From Bacillota bacterium (GTDB lineage Bacteria; Bacteroidota; Bacteroidia; Bacteroidales; Bacteroidaceae), in contig JAMPFD010000010.1 of the NCBI GenBank assembly GCA_023664625.1, positions 43,005 through 107,004 on the forward strand: 64,000 nucleotides of DNA, in the 5' to 3' direction. Numbering within the stretch: the first letter of the stretch is position 1; every line of letters begins with the position of its first letter. A program made the translations under genes and the position numbers. A model generated the notes under the pieces. That model saw nothing but the letters and a program-made list of their open reading frames with translations, did no database searches and was not told the origin of the DNA. Shown piece by piece: positions 8,343 through 48,021 of the stretch.

Positions 8343-8439
8343 TTGAATGTAAAACGTAACACTTTACAGTATGAAAGGTTACCTTTTATGATGCGACGTG
8401 TCACCTTTTGCATGACAAAAGGTGACACGTCGGAAACCA
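8343..8439. repeat. Intergenic palindrome of 22-bp units, locus A
   Basis: A perfect 17-bp inverted repeat (8394-8410 and 8416-8432) surrounds a 5-base loop. From the loop, units of exactly 22 bases run outward: on the minus strand 8408-8387, 8386-8365 and 8364-8343, and on the plus strand 8418-8439. They share AAAGGTRAC at the start, with the outermost unit degenerate. No T run follows, so it is not a simple terminator. The same unit occurs at 18145-18241, 30001-30080 and 47903-48021. The rest of the 8082-8554 gap shows nothing recognisable. Confidence 0.85.
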
Positions 8440-16261: not shown

Positions 16262-17596
16262 ATGAAATTTGAAGAATTAGACCTTTCGTACAATATCCTC
16301 GATGCACTTTATGACATGAAGTTTGAGGATTGCACCCCCATACAGGAACAAACAATACCCCATATACTCAATGGCGAGGACGTGCTCGGCATAGCACAGA
16401 CAGGAACGGGAAAGACAGCGGCTTACCTGCTGCCCGTCCTCTCTCTCATTGACGACTATCCTAATGACTTCCCGAGTGATGCGATAAACTGTGTCATCAT
16501 GTCACCGACCAGAGAACTGGCACAGCAGATTGACCAGGCGATGCAGGGATTCGGATACTATCTTGACGGAATCTCCTCCATACCGGTCTACGGCGGTAAC
16601 GACGGCAACCGTTTCGAACAGGAAGTGAAGGCCATGAAGAAGGGTGCAGGACTCGTCATAGCAACCCCGGGGCGCCTCATATCCCACCTGCAAATTGGCA
16701 ACCTTGACCTTTCACGATGCTCATTCTTCATCCTTGACGAAGCCGACCGCATGCTGGACATGGGATTCTCCGAAGACATAATGAAGATTGCCAAAGAACT
16801 GCCGCCTACATGCCAGACAATCATGTTCTCCGCAACAATGCCGGAGAAAATCGAGGAACTTGCCAAGACAATTCTCAAAAATCCTGTTGAGGTCAAGATT
16901 GCCGTCTCCAAACCTGCGGAAAAGATACACCAGTCGGCATACGTCTGCTACGAGCCACAGAAACTGCGCATTATTGAAAACATATTCAAACAGGGCGGCC
17001 TGCAGCGCGTCATTATCTTCTCCGGCAAGAAAACCAAGGTCAAGGACATCACCACAAAACTCGCACGCATGAACATAAACTGCGGTGCCATGCATTCTGA
17101 CCTGACCCAGGCTGAGCGTGACGACATAATGTTCCGGTTCAAAGCTGGTCAAATCGATGTGCTGATCGCTACGGACATTGTATCAAGAGGCATTGACATC
17201 GATGATATTCTCATGGTCATAAACTATGATGTCCCACACGATGCAGAAGATTATGTCCACCGCATCGGACGCACCGCACGCGCTCAGAGGGACGGACGTG
17301 CCGTCACTCTTGTCAATGAGGACGACATCTACTATTTCAAGATGATTGAGAAATTCCTTGAACGCGAGGTTGAAAAGAATCCTATGCCTGAGGGGCTTGA
17401 AAAAGGACCAGAATACAAAGTAAGTTCAAAGAGCGGTATGCACACAAAACGTGGTACACAACGTAATACGCGCACGACACGCAACAACAAAAACAGCAAG
17501 ACCAGGCAGTCAAAAGACGGAGATACAAAGAAAAGGCAAAACCGGCAGCGACGAAAGCCGGACGGCAAGCAGAAGAAGGCAAAGGGACAGGAATGA
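16262..17596 (+). CDS. DEAD-box ATP-dependent RNA helicase (RhlE-like)
   Basis: The 444-residue protein has the two RecA-like domains of DEAD-box helicases: the Q motif near CTPIQEQTIP (24-33), Walker A AQTGTGKT (45-52), PTRELAQQI, DEAD at 159-162, SAT, and in the second domain DIVSRGIDI and HRIGRTAR. It unwinds short RNA duplexes, for example during ribosome assembly or RNA decay. The last 70 residues are very basic and low-complexity (Lys, Arg, Thr, Asn), like RNA-binding tails of RhlE-type enzymes. The gene ends before a strong terminator and appears to be a single transcription unit. Confidence 0.95.
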   Translation: MKFEELDLSYNILDALYDMKFEDCTPIQEQTIPHILNGEDVLGIAQTGTGKTAAYLLPVLSLIDDYPNDFPSDAINCVIMSPTRELAQQIDQAMQGFGYYLDGISSIPVYGGNDGNRFEQEVKAMKKGAGLVIATPGRLISHLQIGNLDLSRCSFFILDEADRMLDMGFSEDIMKIAKELPPTCQTIMFSATMPEKIEELAKTILKNPVEVKIAVSKPAEKIHQSAYVCYEPQKLRIIENIFKQGGLQRVIIFSGKKTKVKDITTKLARMNINCGAMHSDLTQAERDDIMFRFKAGQIDVLIATDIVSRGIDIDDILMVINYDVPHDAEDYVHRIGRTARAQRDGRAVTLVNEDDIYYFKMIEKFLEREVEKNPMPEGLEKGPEYKVSSKSGMHTKRGTQRNTRTTRNNKNSKTRQSKDGDTKKRQNRQRRKPDGKQKKAKGQE

Positions 17597-17694: not shown

Positions 17695-18144
17695 ACCGTT
17701 TTGACAGAGAAGAACAACCACAGAACACAAAACCGGTGGTGAGGGAGTATTGCTGTTTTCTTGCCGTGACAGTTCCAAACATACAGGTTGTTACAAAATG
17801 ATATAGAGGAAACAATGTATCAGTTCCTTGTCACAACACTTCTAAAATTCAGATAACGACAAGCTCCCGAAACATCACTCCGCATACTAAAAAATCAATG
17901 CCGTGCAGGCATATCACCACACAGTGTATTCCATTCTACGGCATCAGTTTGCAAAACAATTATTTCATATAAGTAACTATTGATAATTATTTTATAATAT
18001 AATGTTTTCTCACTAAAACTTGTTCTTTTTTGTCAGTTAGTGCTTGTCACTCAGTCACAATGCACGCATTGCTCCTTCGGTTCCGTACACTAACCGCATA
18101 AAAAATAACTGCGTTTTTAGTATAAACTAATTTCCAACAGTTAC
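17695..18144. other. Gene-free stretch with nested small inverted repeats
   Basis: No coding frame is convincing here. GTTAGTG (18036-18042) pairs with CACTAAC (18088-18094), and CAATGC (18058-18063) with GCATTG (18066-18071) inside it, so the DNA could make a small branched hairpin. The rest is AT-rich without a recognised element. Confidence 0.4.
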
Positions 18145-18241
18145 TTAAAATCAAAAGCTAACCTTTCGCTCTGTAAACCGTTACCTTTTGCAGTGTAAAA
18201 GGTAACGGTTTACAGAGCGAAAGGTAACACTTCACGATAAG
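18145..18241. repeat. Intergenic palindrome of 22-bp units, locus B
   Basis: A perfect 29-bp inverted repeat (18161-18189 and 18197-18225) flanks a 7-base loop. Units of 22 bases run outward on the plus strand at 18198-18219 and 18220-18241 and on the minus strand at 18188-18167 and 18166-18145. Inner units begin AAAGGTAACGGTTTACA. It lies 127 bases past the 3' end of the sensor kinase gene. This is the most regular of the four copies in the window. Confidence 0.88.
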
Positions 18242-18368
18242 AAAATTCAGCGTTCGGATTGTTACAGTTTATGGAAAGACAAGAAAAAGAATTACGGGCG
18301 GGCTTGTTGTACAGCATTTAAGAATGGTTATCAGGCACGTACAGCCATTAAGACATAAAAAACATCTG

Positions 18369-21300
18369 TCACAGCAGAGGGATAATGACCTGCAGCATGT
18401 CATTATCCAAGGTTGTACCACAGCGGTGAAGGGAGAACTGTTCTCCAAGGTCACGGACAATCTGTGTGCAGACTCTTATTCTTATCTCATCATACCGTAT
18501 GACAGGAATATTATATTCTGAATATTTCCCTTCTGTCCTTTCAGGCAATATGTCAGCCTTGCGCTGTCCGCTGAGACGGGCGAGATTGCGGAGAAGAATA
18601 TCCTTAAGCAAAGCCGGAGGCAACATCTGCGTGCCGTTCACCATAGCCTGCCTGGCCAATATGCCGTAGACTGCACGGTAATAGCGCGCCACCTCGTCAA
18701 GCTCACAATAGGACTGGCCGGTACCGGTATAGGAAAGTAACTGACGGATACGCGAGGGATAGTACATTGTCTCGTGCTTTATTGCGGAGAAAGAATTTGA
18801 CATCACATTGTCAAGAACGTGCATACGGTCGCGCTCAAAGGAGAGCCTGGCATGGCGCTCGCGAAGTTCCGAAAGACTACGCTCCCGTTTCTGCTGTTCA
18901 TTACGCATATTGTCCATGGCGCGGCGTACATCCCTTATGACATATTTATAGTAAGAGAAATAGTAGACCGGAAGGAAAAGTAACAGTAATATGACAAGCA
19001 AAGCTATTGCCACATTACGGTTTGTCTCCGTGACTTGCATGCGGCGGCAATATTCTTCGAGTGTATTATCCGCATAATACTCTTTGTACATCTGCGTGTA
19101 TATTCTGTTATTGTAGGCATACACGTCCCATTCATGCAGTGCGAGAGACGCCACGGCAATCTCATTGCGTAAGGACATAAGAGTCTGATAGTCCATGGGG
19201 ACAGAGTCTTTCATCCAGCGCATATCGGCAGGATAGGTCATATCACGGTCAAAGAACATGAGCGTATCGTTGCGCTGTCCGCCGCCGGCAAGATAATCCT
19301 TGTTTATTTCCTCCATGCAATGTCTGGCAAAGGCAAGGGCTTCGGTATACTTTCCCTTGACATTGCACTCATAAACACTGTCTGCAAGCGATTCATACTC
19401 CCTGGAATTGACAGACATGGCACTTGCAAACATCAATATTGCAACGGAAAGACGCCGTACTCCCGCGGGCAGACGGAAGAAGAAGCGTGAGCCTCTGCCC
19501 TCCTTGCTGTCGACATCTATCATGCAACCGGCAAAGAGGGCGTTCGTTTTCTTGTATTTCTCTATAATGCCTTTACAGTTAAGAAGTCCGAAGCCGTGGG
19601 AGATTCCTGACGTATCTTTTCCCCGGGTCACTTCGTCTACAATCGGCTTGACGTCAAATATATGCTCCGCCTGCCGCTCTGTCATGCCACACCCGTTGTC
19701 CTCGACAGACAATTCAACCATATTGCCGCCAACGGCCTTCGCACTTATCCTGACAAAACCGTTACGGAGAGAAAACTTGCGCGCATTGTCACACAATGTG
19801 TTTAGCATGAAGAGAGTCAGGCTTCTGTCAGCCTTGACATACTCAGGTGTGTCCTCTATCTCAAGTCTGACACCCTGATGCGTATAACTTATGGCATTCT
19901 TACGTATTATGTCAAACAGAGGCTGTAAAGGAAAGGTTTCAATATGCAGGGAGAGAGAACCTTTTTTAAGTTTTATCCAGTCGGTCAGGAAATCATTCCG
20001 GCTGTTTATTCTGTCCACAAGTTCTGCGATATACTGACGGCGTTCATCTCTTATTTTTTCCGTTTCTGTCTTCTCACAGAGCGAGGAAGTTTCGTGAAGC
20101 ATGCGGTCTATAAGCGGTGTCATGGAATTAATGAGATGCATCTTGGCACGATGCTCTGCGTATGTCTCCTGAAGCATGGACAATTCGTGGCCAACCACCG
20201 CACATTGCTCTTCACACTCTTCTATTTGCTCCTCCAACTGCGCTATATTCCGGCTGCTGTCTTCCTGTAACGATGCTATATGCCCCAATAGCCGGCCTTT
20301 ACGTGACAGACGTCTGCGGCGGACAACGAGACAGACGAGCAGGAGTATCAGGCAGGCAACGACACATATTATTATATATATAAGGATATTGAGCCACTGC
20401 ACCTGCTTCCCGAGCTGCTCGGCACGCGCCTCCCATTGCTTATCCTGCCGTGTGTCTTCATAAAGGTCAAGATACATGTTGCGATGACGGTCGCTCTCCT
20501 GTTTCATGTCCATTGCCGAAAAGGCAATGGAGAACTGTTCGTAGATAGATGCCATAAGAGCTGGTGCCTGCACCACGGCGGTGTCAGTCTTCAAAGCCTG
20601 CTGCAAGGAATATATTGCTCCGGGATAGTCTCCGATATGTATATAACACCGCGAAAGCGTACGCCATGCCGCAGCTTGCTGGTAGACATCACCATAGTCC
20701 TTGAAGAGTTTCAGAGCCTTGTCAGCAAGAACTCCTGCAGAAAAAGAGCCTGTGCTGTCTATGCCGAGATATCTGCGGGCCAGACGCTCGTCAGGAATCT
20801 CCATCCCTGGATTGTCTGTCATCCGTTCGCTGAGAGCCTGCAGGACATTGGCACACCAATATGTATAGCCGCTTTCATAAGAGATAATGTAGCACTGCAT
20901 CAGACAGTCTAATTCCTGATGTGCAATATTCTCCTTTGTGCCGTTTCTGAGTATTCCACCTGAACCTATATTATACAAATAGGCTACATACTGTGCCGTA
21001 TCACGCTTCAGGTCAGCGATACTGTCAGCCTTCAGATGGGAAGCTACCGCATCGTCTGTATTGCCTACATAATAGTCATAGACGGAAGAGACAAGGTACA
21101 GCTCGCTTTCGGCGTATAACAGCCGGCCTTTCTCATGGTCTGACAGTTTAGGGGACTCTGTCTTTATCCGTTTCAGATGATGTAACGCAAGTTGTCTGTA
21201 CTGATAGTAATCTTTATTGTCTGAACATCGCTGGCAGATACGCATCTGCTGGACAGAGGCTACAAGGAGCTCTATGCTGTTATCAGTTGTACGGTGCACT

Positions 21301-21608
21301 TCTCCAAGAAGCGAGTCTGCAATAGTGTACTGCATCTTCCCTATATGATAGAACGCTATGTTGTTGAGAGCCTCTGCCTTTTGGTCGGAAGAAAGACAGG
21401 GAAGCTGCATCACACTGTCAGCATAAAGCTTTGTCTTGGCAAGTGAACGGTAATGCTGCGAGTATGCCATTCCGTTGAGACGCCTTGCCTCTCTTTCATT
21501 ATTTGAGCAGGAATAAAAAGAAAGCAGACTTCCCATCATCACCATGATGACAGAAAGCCTGCACGATATGTTATTTATAAATGACAACTTATATTCTGTA
21601 ATTATCAT
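18369..21608 (-). CDS. Two-part membrane sensor kinase (DUF5112/DUF5113-like)
   Basis: The 1079-residue protein starts with a lipoprotein-like signal (Cys34 in SFYSCSNN), then TPR-like helices to about 390, a membrane segment at about 406-430, a coiled coil, and a histidine-kinase-type ATPase domain with N box LNTLCDNARKF (602-612), DNGCG (637-641) and GFGLL (672-676). A clear HisKA H-box is not seen. At about 717 a second hydrophobic segment starts a second half, with its own helical sensor region, a membrane segment near 850 and a C-terminal domain of unknown function. I recall such proteins as carrying DUF5112 and DUF5113. No response regulator gene is adjacent, so its partner is encoded elsewhere. 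Confidence 0.8.
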   Translation of the reverse strand: MIITEYKLSFINNISCRLSVIMVMMGSLLSFYSCSNNEREARRLNGMAYSQHYRSLAKTKLYADSVMQLPCLSSDQKAEALNNIAFYHIGKMQYTIADSLLGEVHRTTDNSIELLVASVQQMRICQRCSDNKDYYQYRQLALHHLKRIKTESPKLSDHEKGRLLYAESELYLVSSVYDYYVGNTDDAVASHLKADSIADLKRDTAQYVAYLYNIGSGGILRNGTKENIAHQELDCLMQCYIISYESGYTYWCANVLQALSERMTDNPGMEIPDERLARRYLGIDSTGSFSAGVLADKALKLFKDYGDVYQQAAAWRTLSRCYIHIGDYPGAIYSLQQALKTDTAVVQAPALMASIYEQFSIAFSAMDMKQESDRHRNMYLDLYEDTRQDKQWEARAEQLGKQVQWLNILIYIIICVVACLILLLVCLVVRRRRLSRKGRLLGHIASLQEDSSRNIAQLEEQIEECEEQCAVVGHELSMLQETYAEHRAKMHLINSMTPLIDRMLHETSSLCEKTETEKIRDERRQYIAELVDRINSRNDFLTDWIKLKKGSLSLHIETFPLQPLFDIIRKNAISYTHQGVRLEIEDTPEYVKADRSLTLFMLNTLCDNARKFSLRNGFVRISAKAVGGNMVELSVEDNGCGMTERQAEHIFDVKPIVDEVTRGKDTSGISHGFGLLNCKGIIEKYKKTNALFAGCMIDVDSKEGRGSRFFFRLPAGVRRLSVAILMFASAMSVNSREYESLADSVYECNVKGKYTEALAFARHCMEEINKDYLAGGGQRNDTLMFFDRDMTYPADMRWMKDSVPMDYQTLMSLRNEIAVASLALHEWDVYAYNNRIYTQMYKEYYADNTLEEYCRRMQVTETNRNVAIALLVILLLLFLPVYYFSYYKYVIRDVRRAMDNMRNEQQKRERSLSELRERHARLSFERDRMHVLDNVMSNSFSAIKHETMYYPSRIRQLLSYTGTGQSYCELDEVARYYRAVYGILARQAMVNGTQMLPPALLKDILLRNLARLSGQRKADILPERTEGKYSEYNIPVIRYDEIRIRVCTQIVRDLGEQFSLHRCGTTLDNDMLQVIIPLL

Positions 21609-30000: not shown

Positions 30001-30080
30001 AAAGGTGACGATTTGCAGTCCAAAAGGTAACGTTTTTATATGTGAATCGTTACCTTTTGTACTGCAAATCGTCACCTTTT
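30001..30080. repeat. Intergenic palindrome of 22-bp units, locus C (convergent arrangement)
   Basis: Arms of 32 bases (30001-30032 and 30048-30079) pair with a single mismatch around a 15-base loop. Here the 22-bp units point toward the centre (plus 30001-30022 and 30023-30044; minus 30079-30058 and 30057-30036), the reverse of loci A, B and D. Units begin AAAGGTGAC (outer) and AAAGGTAAC (inner). The rest of the gap 29910-30275 holds nothing recognised. Confidence 0.85.
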
Positions 30081-33057: not shown

Positions 33058-33093
33058 TTACAACAATATATGCAAAGAAATAGAAAAAATATG

Positions 33094-33235
33094 TACCTTT
33101 GCATAAGATAAGCGGCACCTCGGCAAACGTAAGCAAGCTACGTATGCGCTCGGTTTGCAGTATCTTTGCATAAGATAAGCGGCACCTCGGCAGACATGGG
33201 CAAGCTACGTATGCACCCGGTTTGCAGTATCTTTG
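33094..33235 (+). repeat. 67-bp tandem repeat carrying three -7-like boxes
   Basis: TACCTTTG at 33094, TATCTTTG at 33161 and TATCTTTG at 33228 are exactly 67 bases apart. The 67-bp segments between them are nearly identical, sharing GCATAAGATAAGCGGCACCT, GCAAGCTACGTATGC and CGGTTTGCAG. Each box fits TAnnTTTG, so this may be a multiplied promoter element. The last box would start transcription near 33242, ahead of the MaoC-type gene at 33335. From memory, similar GCGGCACCTCGGC-type segments occur before many genes in Prevotella and Bacteroides. Confidence 0.8.
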
Positions 33236-33334
33236 CATAAGGCTGACCGATTCCACGAGGGACGGAAAACATAGTTTTCTGTCGCCGGCATGATAATAAG
33301 AACAACGGCAAAACTAAAACAAAAAAATACAAAA

Positions 33335-47902: not shown

Positions 47903-48021
47903 TACGCCTTAAAAGAGTAACATGGCATATATAATCCGTTACCTTTCGTCATGTAAAAGGTAACGGTTTATCATGTAAATCGTAACACTTTACAATGGCA
48001 AAGGTAACGGTTTCTTTTCCG
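47903..48021. repeat. Intergenic palindrome of 22-bp units, locus D
   Basis: The core is an 11-bp inverted repeat CCGTTACCTTT (47936-47946) and its complement (47956-47966) with a 9-base loop. On the plus strand three 22-bp units run outward (47956-47977, 47978-47999, 48000-48021); the middle one is degenerate. On the minus strand one good unit (47946-47925) and one degenerate unit follow. This is the longest but least perfect of the four copies. The remainder of the gap 47786-48191 holds nothing recognised. Confidence 0.8.

Follow-up and report, generated by a model that had tools for sequence, protein, structure and literature searches.

Intergenic arrays of dyads in a 22-bp register in Palleniella-type and other Prevotella genomes

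Intergenic DNA of the genome studied here carries arrays of short imperfect dyads, usually four per array, which are held in a strict 22-bp register and occur in either orientation. The window, i.e. the whole stretch of 64,000 nucleotides that was analyzed (G000:C1:43005-107004), belongs to a genome of 2.87 Mb (G000, hereafter the source genome). An earlier note on this DNA had described palindromes built from units of 22 bp. The units and their phase hold, but the palindrome is not the building principle. The source genome is related to Palleniella, with a DNA ligase 87% identical to those of two genomes that were taken as Palleniella muris NM73_A23 (G125) and the MAG Prevotella sp. SC0317_S2_2 (G060, hereafter SC0317).

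Architecture of the arrays

Array B (18154-18232, no strand assigned) consists of four 13-bp imperfect dyads (AAnnGTnACnnTT) with centres at 18160, 18182, 18204 and 18226, a spacing of exactly 22 bp regardless of orientation (= - + +). A weak fifth position is seen at 18248. The perfect 29-bp inverted repeat previously reported for this locus was recovered (18161-18225, no strand assigned). It is formed by units 2 and 3, which are in -+ order, and extends into units 1 and 4; the arms are located at 18161-18189 and 18197-18225 and enclose a loop of 7 nt. A second measurement of the repeat gave 32 nt at 97%. The genes on both sides point toward the array, namely a DEAD/DEAH-box helicase gene assigned by Pfam (16262-17596, plus strand) and a histidine kinase-like gene with HATPase_c, DUF5112 and DUF5113 (18369-21608, minus strand). 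Directly to the left of the array, at 17970-18147, we observed a MITE-like element with two 33-nt arms that are 82% complementary. This element has matches in P. muris (contigs C12 and C7), and similar ends occur beside arrays at loci L002, L029, L033, L046 and L050.

Three further gaps in the window hold such arrays, none of them assigned to a strand, which brings the number to the four originally claimed. Array A (8352-8430) has centres at 8358, 8380, 8402 and 8424, and its last two units lie inside a 17-bp perfect inverted repeat. Array C (30001-30079) has centres at 30007, 30029, 30051 and 30073 in ++-- orientation, with arms of 35 nt that are 94% complementary. The centres of array D (47934-48012) are at 47940, 47962, 47984 and 48006. 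Allowing at most one mismatch, the motif AAAGGTRACNNTTNNCA occurs 9 times in the window as compared to 0.25 expected. Genome-wide, 187+177 matches were obtained, versus 22+20 for the reversed pattern. Further copies are thus present in the genome and keep the exact phase, the two points on which the initial proposal had been made to depend. A different interspersed repeat of about 145 bp was observed at 33082-33241, with more than 20 matches in P. muris and SC0317.

The register extends across 461 kb of source-genome sequence, where distances between pairs of sites were 22 bp (125 cases), 44 bp (80), 66 bp (42) and 88 bp (4); a Markov control displayed no peak. The counts follow a 3:2:1:0 series and therefore indicate arrays of four. 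Among the 46 arrays of the source-genome sample, 32 had four units, 6 had five, 2 had three and 6 had two, and shuffled controls of the sample contained no arrays. Four units were also counted in 9 of 11 arrays in P. muris, 14 of 18 in P. intestinalis, 4 of 5 in SC0317, 13 of 23 in G078 (the remaining 10 scored three units) and 4 of 6 in G010. In G084 the same finder returned 3 to 7 units, with four units in 5 of 18 arrays, and four stand out in the consensus. Loci L085-L121 were picked for holding arrays, and most stretches from the source genome, P. muris and SC0317 were picked around known hits or orthologues, so that densities in these samples are biased. Arrays that had under four units or lay close to a locus end are not part of the four-unit sets (87 arrays for covariation; 121 for the tests of similarity, stems and words). 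Reversed sequence yielded as many arrays as the real strand, we think because reversed linkers mimic the core. Shuffles and Markov resampling were therefore used instead.

The units commonly carry AAAGG on one side and AA plus a variable dinucleotide (x) on the other, and both orientations occur. The letters of the core are dyad-symmetric; the purine/pyrimidine (R/Y) positions at ±8 vary without regard to their partner positions, and perfect dyads within units are avoided (-3/+3, z -6.4). Units 2 and 3 have the same orientation in 38 of the 44 arrays, among 87, in which both could be oriented. At the array edges AACRAA...TTYGTT is more frequent than the linker TTYRCAnTGYRAA, and the left and right edges share one consensus in inverted sense. 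Beyond the edge, conservation of the flanks is weak in the arrays of the source genome, as is the signal of a motif TGATNATCA at +22/+33 outside the array.

Distribution in the genus and relation to PINSR

The earlier note had mentioned similar segments in other Prevotella genomes, and such relatives were found, with the same frame and other central words, G084 included. Across 150 genomes of the genus, the unit pattern of the source genome gave 131 hits in P. muris, 125 in the source genome itself, 58 in SC0317, 26 in G078, 17 in G065 and 7 in G010, with 0 to 4 in the others. Among named genomes, an exact two-unit pattern was found in 37 stretches, all of which belong to P. muris, P. intestinalis or one of three Prevotella MAGs. 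Arrays with a 22-bp register and other central words are present in G078, G010 and G065, and the frame was recognized by eye at loci of G012, G003, G039, G140, G044 and G122. A frame pattern with at most 3 mismatches was found in 19 of the 150 genomes, with 0 or 1 in the controls. A looser linker pattern was passed by 21 of 150, or about one in seven, under a rule of at least 80 hits over both strands and at least twice the genome's own control (counted from the table). In G058 the reversed control pattern exceeded the forward pattern (474 versus 235), hinting at a different abundant repeat. Within the family, the linker pattern reached at least 20 hits over both strands in 12 of 47 sampled genomes of the genus and in 1 of 202 family genomes outside it (G303, 18+16). 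Extrapolation from 45 arrays in 670 kb of source-genome sequence gives about 190 arrays per genome.

One relative is known from the literature. Naito et al. (December 2015, PMC4755523) described PINSR as an intergenic repeat of 188 bp with 177 and 184 copies in two strains. In the portion of that paper available to us, the repeat was judged non-coding and without terminal inverted repeats, and was reported also downstream of tnaA; about three-quarters of the copies were common to the two strains, and it was absent from most strain-specific mobile elements. In G084 we found 18 arrays in 160 kb, embedded in a repeat of which about 190 bases are conserved by eye, and one copy is located directly downstream of tnaA (array at 1140-1250 and tnaA at 1492-2868 on the minus strand of L363). 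Judged by its repeat, its tnaA neighbour and its two contigs, G084 is probably a member of the P. intermedia group. Its repeat appears to fit PINSR in the length of about 190 bp, the intergenic copies and the copy downstream of tnaA, a likeness by traits and not by letters, and its core consists of 22-bp units. PINSR as published is group-specific, and the same portion of the paper states neither 22-bp units nor outside relatives nor a function (PMC4755523).

The 22-bp frame is not confined to the intermedia/nigrescens group but occurs in Palleniella, G078, G010, G012, G003 and others. The window array is therefore at most a relative of PINSR and not PINSR itself. In contrast to PINSR, the Palleniella arrays keep the core alone, with other words, and PINSR-like conserved flanks outside the unit core were not seen in the arrays of the source genome. 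Among the matches listed, no second publication on PINSR was found, and titles and the opening parts of abstracts revealed no work on the arrays in Palleniella. Beyond this one published relative, the architecture of four units at 22 bp, the breadth in the genus, the spacing and the restricted matching of words are new.

A PINSR-type copy lies at 9382-9414 of L364, an IMG/VR contig of 37.7 kb that is filed as viral and that may represent host DNA at a prophage edge. Both G084 and G132 also contain repeats of about 90 bp that are rich in TTTACACGTAAA- or TTTTCATGAAAA-type palindromes, e.g. at joined-stretch offsets 87097 (G084) and 31007 (G132).

Genomic context, spacing and divergence

The location of the arrays was classified in four Palleniella-type genomes using crude ORFs as gene calls and leaving out 6 arrays at contig edges. 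The intergenic position that the earlier note had described was observed for 92 of 93 arrays, with 32 in convergent, 51 in tandem and 9 in divergent gaps, and a single array within a gene. Background gaps of at least 150 bp comprised 73 convergent, 180 tandem and 63 divergent cases. Convergent gaps are thus over-represented and divergent gaps under-represented (arrays convergent versus divergent, Fisher P 0.006). The suggested check on gene ends accordingly revealed a preference in the Palleniella-type genomes. It was not seen in G078 and G010, where arrays numbered 7 in convergent, 15 in tandem and 6 in divergent gaps, versus 20, 78 and 22 in the background. In tandem gaps the array lies at a median of 121.5 bp beyond the upstream gene, and its polarity is the same as that of transcription in 27 of 43 cases (27 versus 16, not significant).

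Neighbouring arrays are also seldom close together. Of 94 spacings in contiguous stretches from five genomes, 4 were below 4 kb as compared to 18-23 expected from random choice among eligible gaps, and 0 of 3000 random placements were as low in each of three null models. These stretches include every array found; most of them, including C26, C11 and the window, were already known to bear arrays. By genome, the repulsion was seen in the source genome (P <= 0.0003), G078 (0.002-0.025), P. muris (0.03-0.06) and G084 (0.01-0.05), and was absent from G010, whose 5 spacings went in the opposite direction. The contiguous source-genome sample contains about one array per 15 kb. Its spacing shows no significant regularity by itself (CV 0.85, P 0.09-0.20), with array-free stretches of 35 and 65 kb. 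The sole pair closer than 4 kb in this sample was observed at L034 16927-17881, where two arrays 0.87 kb apart enclose a short ORF that may be an ATPase remnant.

Nine orthologous array pairs from the source genome, P. muris and P. intestinalis differed at 9 of 288 core sites and 28 of 288 linker sites, at 7 of 144 sites of the word and AG dinucleotides and at 4 of 36 centre sites. Seven of 9 tested array gaps of the source genome, a set from which array D is left out, hold an array in P. muris, and one of these is clearly the same array (97% identical). The P. muris arrays in matching gaps were not counted as orthologues, being mostly unlike in sequence and often located in large insertions. 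For one array (L035 18411 in the source genome and L174 17079 in P. muris), the array and its 80-bp flanks are 96-99% identical in a surrounding block of 86% identity. When P. muris contigs C44 and C11 were compared to the source genome, 7 of 10 gaps differing by more than 1 kb held an array, versus 3 of 15 other gaps (P 0.034), and arrays may thus mark insertion-prone gaps. Within genomes, we found no near-identical pairs among 64 arrays of the source genome, 28 of P. muris and 12 of SC0317 (best 0.78, 0.71 and 0.67 at non-core sites), and one pair at 0.85 among 17 arrays of P. intestinalis. In G132, 20 examined copies of a longer element with the 22-bp frame are closely alike over about 100 bp.

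Matching of inverted units and possible roles

Arms that match nearly base for base, as seen at locus B, do not represent a general rule. Perfect stems of at least 20 bp were found in 1 of 64 arrays of the source genome, which is locus B (median 11 bp), and in 2 of 28, 0 of 17 and 1 of 12 arrays of P. muris, P. intestinalis and SC0317, respectively. The similarity of units within arrays is close to that between arrays, with 0.531 versus 0.525 in the source genome (38 arrays), 0.580 versus 0.551 in P. muris, 0.583 versus 0.597 in P. intestinalis and 0.546 versus 0.559 in SC0317. The pooled test of covariation between arms, which had been suggested as a check, gave no consistent positive signal (units 2 and 3 mostly negative, units 1 and 4 with z from -0.9 to +2.6), and a hairpin over the whole array was rejected. 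Pooling had, however, concealed the pairs of neighbours in -+ order, which carry matched words, and the absence of any pairing was rejected as well. Pairing or copying of arms thus holds for these neighbours and not for arrays in general.

Of 25 pairs of neighbours in -+ order, 21 agree in their word (CC 11, GT 7, GG 2, TC 1), as compared to 5.0 expected from the pooled set and about 6.3 by species (binomial P about 2e-9 at p 0.26). Twenty of the 25 pairs stem from the source genome alone, where 17 of 20 agree versus 4.7 expected. The complementarity spans the 13-bp units (offsets 5-17), whereas the 9-nt loop, the linkers and the flanks do not match. The words of +- neighbours are not matched (7 of 27 versus 5.4 expected; 1 of 10 in the source genome), although their centre base and outer R/Y positions agree above expectation. 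Among orthologues, 4 of 26 x halves differ, a small sample in which the word dinucleotides change at about the rate of the linkers, and shared descent alone therefore does not account for the -+ match, which points to selected pairing or to correction by template switching at these pairs. Template switching has been described to homogenise the arms of inverted repeats (as outlined in PMC8604942). By reasoning, such correction of pairs with a perfect loop-side stem would need no function and would predict the difference between -+ and +- neighbours. In G084, all 16 copies with a constant fourth word repeat the word of unit 1, inverted, in either unit 2 or unit 3, 8 of them perfectly and 8 with one of seven letters off; this test omits 13 of the 29 rows as misregistered or odd, and the copies are related by descent. 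Matching in other genomes goes in the same direction and is weak, with 8 versus 3.5 in G078 (P 0.02) and, not significantly for adjacent units, 6 versus 3.4 in G010, 1 versus 0.7 in G065 and 4 versus 1.7 in a mixed set.

We consider it possible, if short of probable, that the arrays are cooperative binding sites for a putative protein and have a structural or boundary role as an element dispersed over the chromosome. One dimer of a putative, probably oligomerising, DNA-binding protein would bind to each imperfect dyad of 13 bp, and the spacing of 22 bp, i.e. two helical turns, would set all dimers on one face of the helix. Usually four dimers would sit side by side on an array and read double-stranded DNA. 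Our best guess is that, located behind transcription units, the arrays would serve as topological insulators, anchors or roadblocks, a boundary role resembling that proposed for BIMEs in enterobacteria. Palindromes would arise where adjacent units happen to be inverted, and template switching via a hairpin, or selection for pairing, would keep their words alike. A protein that reads double-stranded DNA is suggested by the orientation-free helical phase, the dyad core, the independent R/Y degeneracy and the preferred number of sites, and a structural or boundary role by the mutual avoidance and, in Palleniella, the position past gene ends. From this evidence, in which we also count the distinct edges, the conservation of the core and the precedent of Lrp, we infer a protein that binds cooperatively, a role of the arrays as boundaries and the reason why words are species-specific.

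The sites of Lrp/AsnC proteins are likewise imperfect inverted repeats, of 13-17 bp, placed two or three helical turns apart, and engage several dimers with wrapping of the DNA; in the excerpt consulted they have an AT-rich centre, whereas the centre of the arrays is GT-AC or GC-rich (PMC2995911). Lrp/AsnC itself was rejected as a discriminating partner, since PF01037 was found in 40 of 40 genomes (1-4 copies), array-rich and array-poor alike. Counted against the platform are the deviations from four units in G084 and the source genome, the patchy distribution (21 of 150), the words that differ between species, the missing gene-end preference in G078 and G010, the irregular spacing in the source genome and the lack of repulsion in G010. 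Furthermore, protein binding alone does not predict the matching of -+ words.

The -+ pairs make it a serious, if rather unlikely, alternative that the functional form is a hairpin, either RNA or a DNA cruciform. Inverted neighbours would then form a stem of 13 bp that closes a loop of 9 nt, and the hairpin would act on the 3' ends of mRNA or on single-stranded DNA. The word agreement, its restriction to the unit, the insufficiency of descent and the results for G084 and G078 agree with this, as does L017, where both members of a core pair that hardly varies elsewhere are changed together. Stems of at least 15 bp exceed those in unit-permuted arrays in the source genome (20 of 64 versus 5.9) and P. 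muris (13 of 28 versus 3.6), less clearly in SC0317 (3 of 12 versus 1.4), but not in P. intestinalis (3 of 17 versus 5.2). Folding energy relative to the permuted arrays is lower in the source genome and P. muris but higher in P. intestinalis and about equal in SC0317. Most neighbours have the same orientation and are unable to pair in this way, the +- neighbours are unmatched, and perfect dyads inside units are avoided. The -+ pairs come largely from one genome, adjacent pairs do not reach significance in G010, G065 or the mixed set, and for the GCGGCTS word in the related copies of G084, letter seven matches its partner in only 5 of 13 cases. RNA would not need the 22-bp register, and no Rfam match above the gathering score was found in the 64-kb window. 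Another reading, unlikely in our view, gains weight from the patchy distribution and from the forms that are amplified in other species, namely that of a non-autonomous mobile element (REP/BIME- or MITE-like) that is spread by a putative enzyme and whose copies would be kept apart by target immunity. In line with mobility, which the earlier note had listed as an option, the pattern is hit hundreds of times per genome, some gaps hold an array in one species but not in another, G132 and G084 have closely alike copies, and a PINSR-type copy lies on the contig filed as viral. For the source genome the option is less convincing. Its 64 arrays include no near-identical copies, nor do those of P. muris and SC0317; the exact Palleniella-type ++ pattern occurs in 0 viral contigs, and array B has no plasmid match. 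A RAYT/Y1 partner was rejected for the source genome, with 0 matches to Y1_Tnp (PF01797) as compared to 5 of 14 control genomes that were positive.

The arrays are intergenic, numerous and made of palindromic units in both orientations, as are REP/BIME elements with RAYT, which also form regularly spaced clusters of mixed orientation with species-specific sequence; binding of IHF and DNA gyrase is reported for BIMEs (PMC2817692). The arrays differ in their usually four units, their 22-bp dyad lattice and in that the clusters keep apart. The BrickBuilt MITE of Porphyromonas gingivalis is intergenic with tandem units of 23 nt, but is described in the accessible text as having 1 to 22.8 direct repeats, a leader and a tail with small inverted-repeat ends, and 19 copies (PMC4596501). 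We regard it as improbable that the arrays are transcription terminators or 3'-end processing signals. In the Palleniella-type genomes, one or both of the adjoining genes end toward the array in 83 of 92 intergenic cases (32 convergent, 51 tandem), and convergent gaps are over-represented against divergent gaps. Inside arrays B and C, however, there is no terminator-like site (GC stem followed by a T run), the nearest such hit being about 42 bp beyond C, in agreement with the initial remark that these are not standard terminators. The distance past the upstream gene, the non-significant polarity, the density of about one array per 15 kb and the lack of gene-end preference in G078 and G010 argue in the same direction. 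Ordinary minisatellite decay or amplification without function, to which the 22-bp tandem frame and the variable unit number in part of the arrays could be attributed, is highly improbable, given that four is the usual count in five genomes examined, that the likeness within and between arrays gives no signal of tandem duplication, and that the core is conserved between species.

The protein-bound platform can be extended to a broader picture, which we regard as doubtful, in which Prevotella chromosomes would be divided by about 190 four-site platforms per genome. These would be spaced by function and bound by a fast-evolving protein with a species-specific word, in analogy to an insulator or loop anchor, and the pairing of inverted neighbours would be a by-product. 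The results connect the published PINSR with a broader family of the genus that has a precise architecture, a spacing rule and, in Palleniella-type genomes, a preference for gene ends. A repeat of obscure role thereby becomes a question open to experiment in gut Prevotella, and the species-specific words would provide a natural experiment in which the specificity of DNA binding and about 200 target sites would change together.
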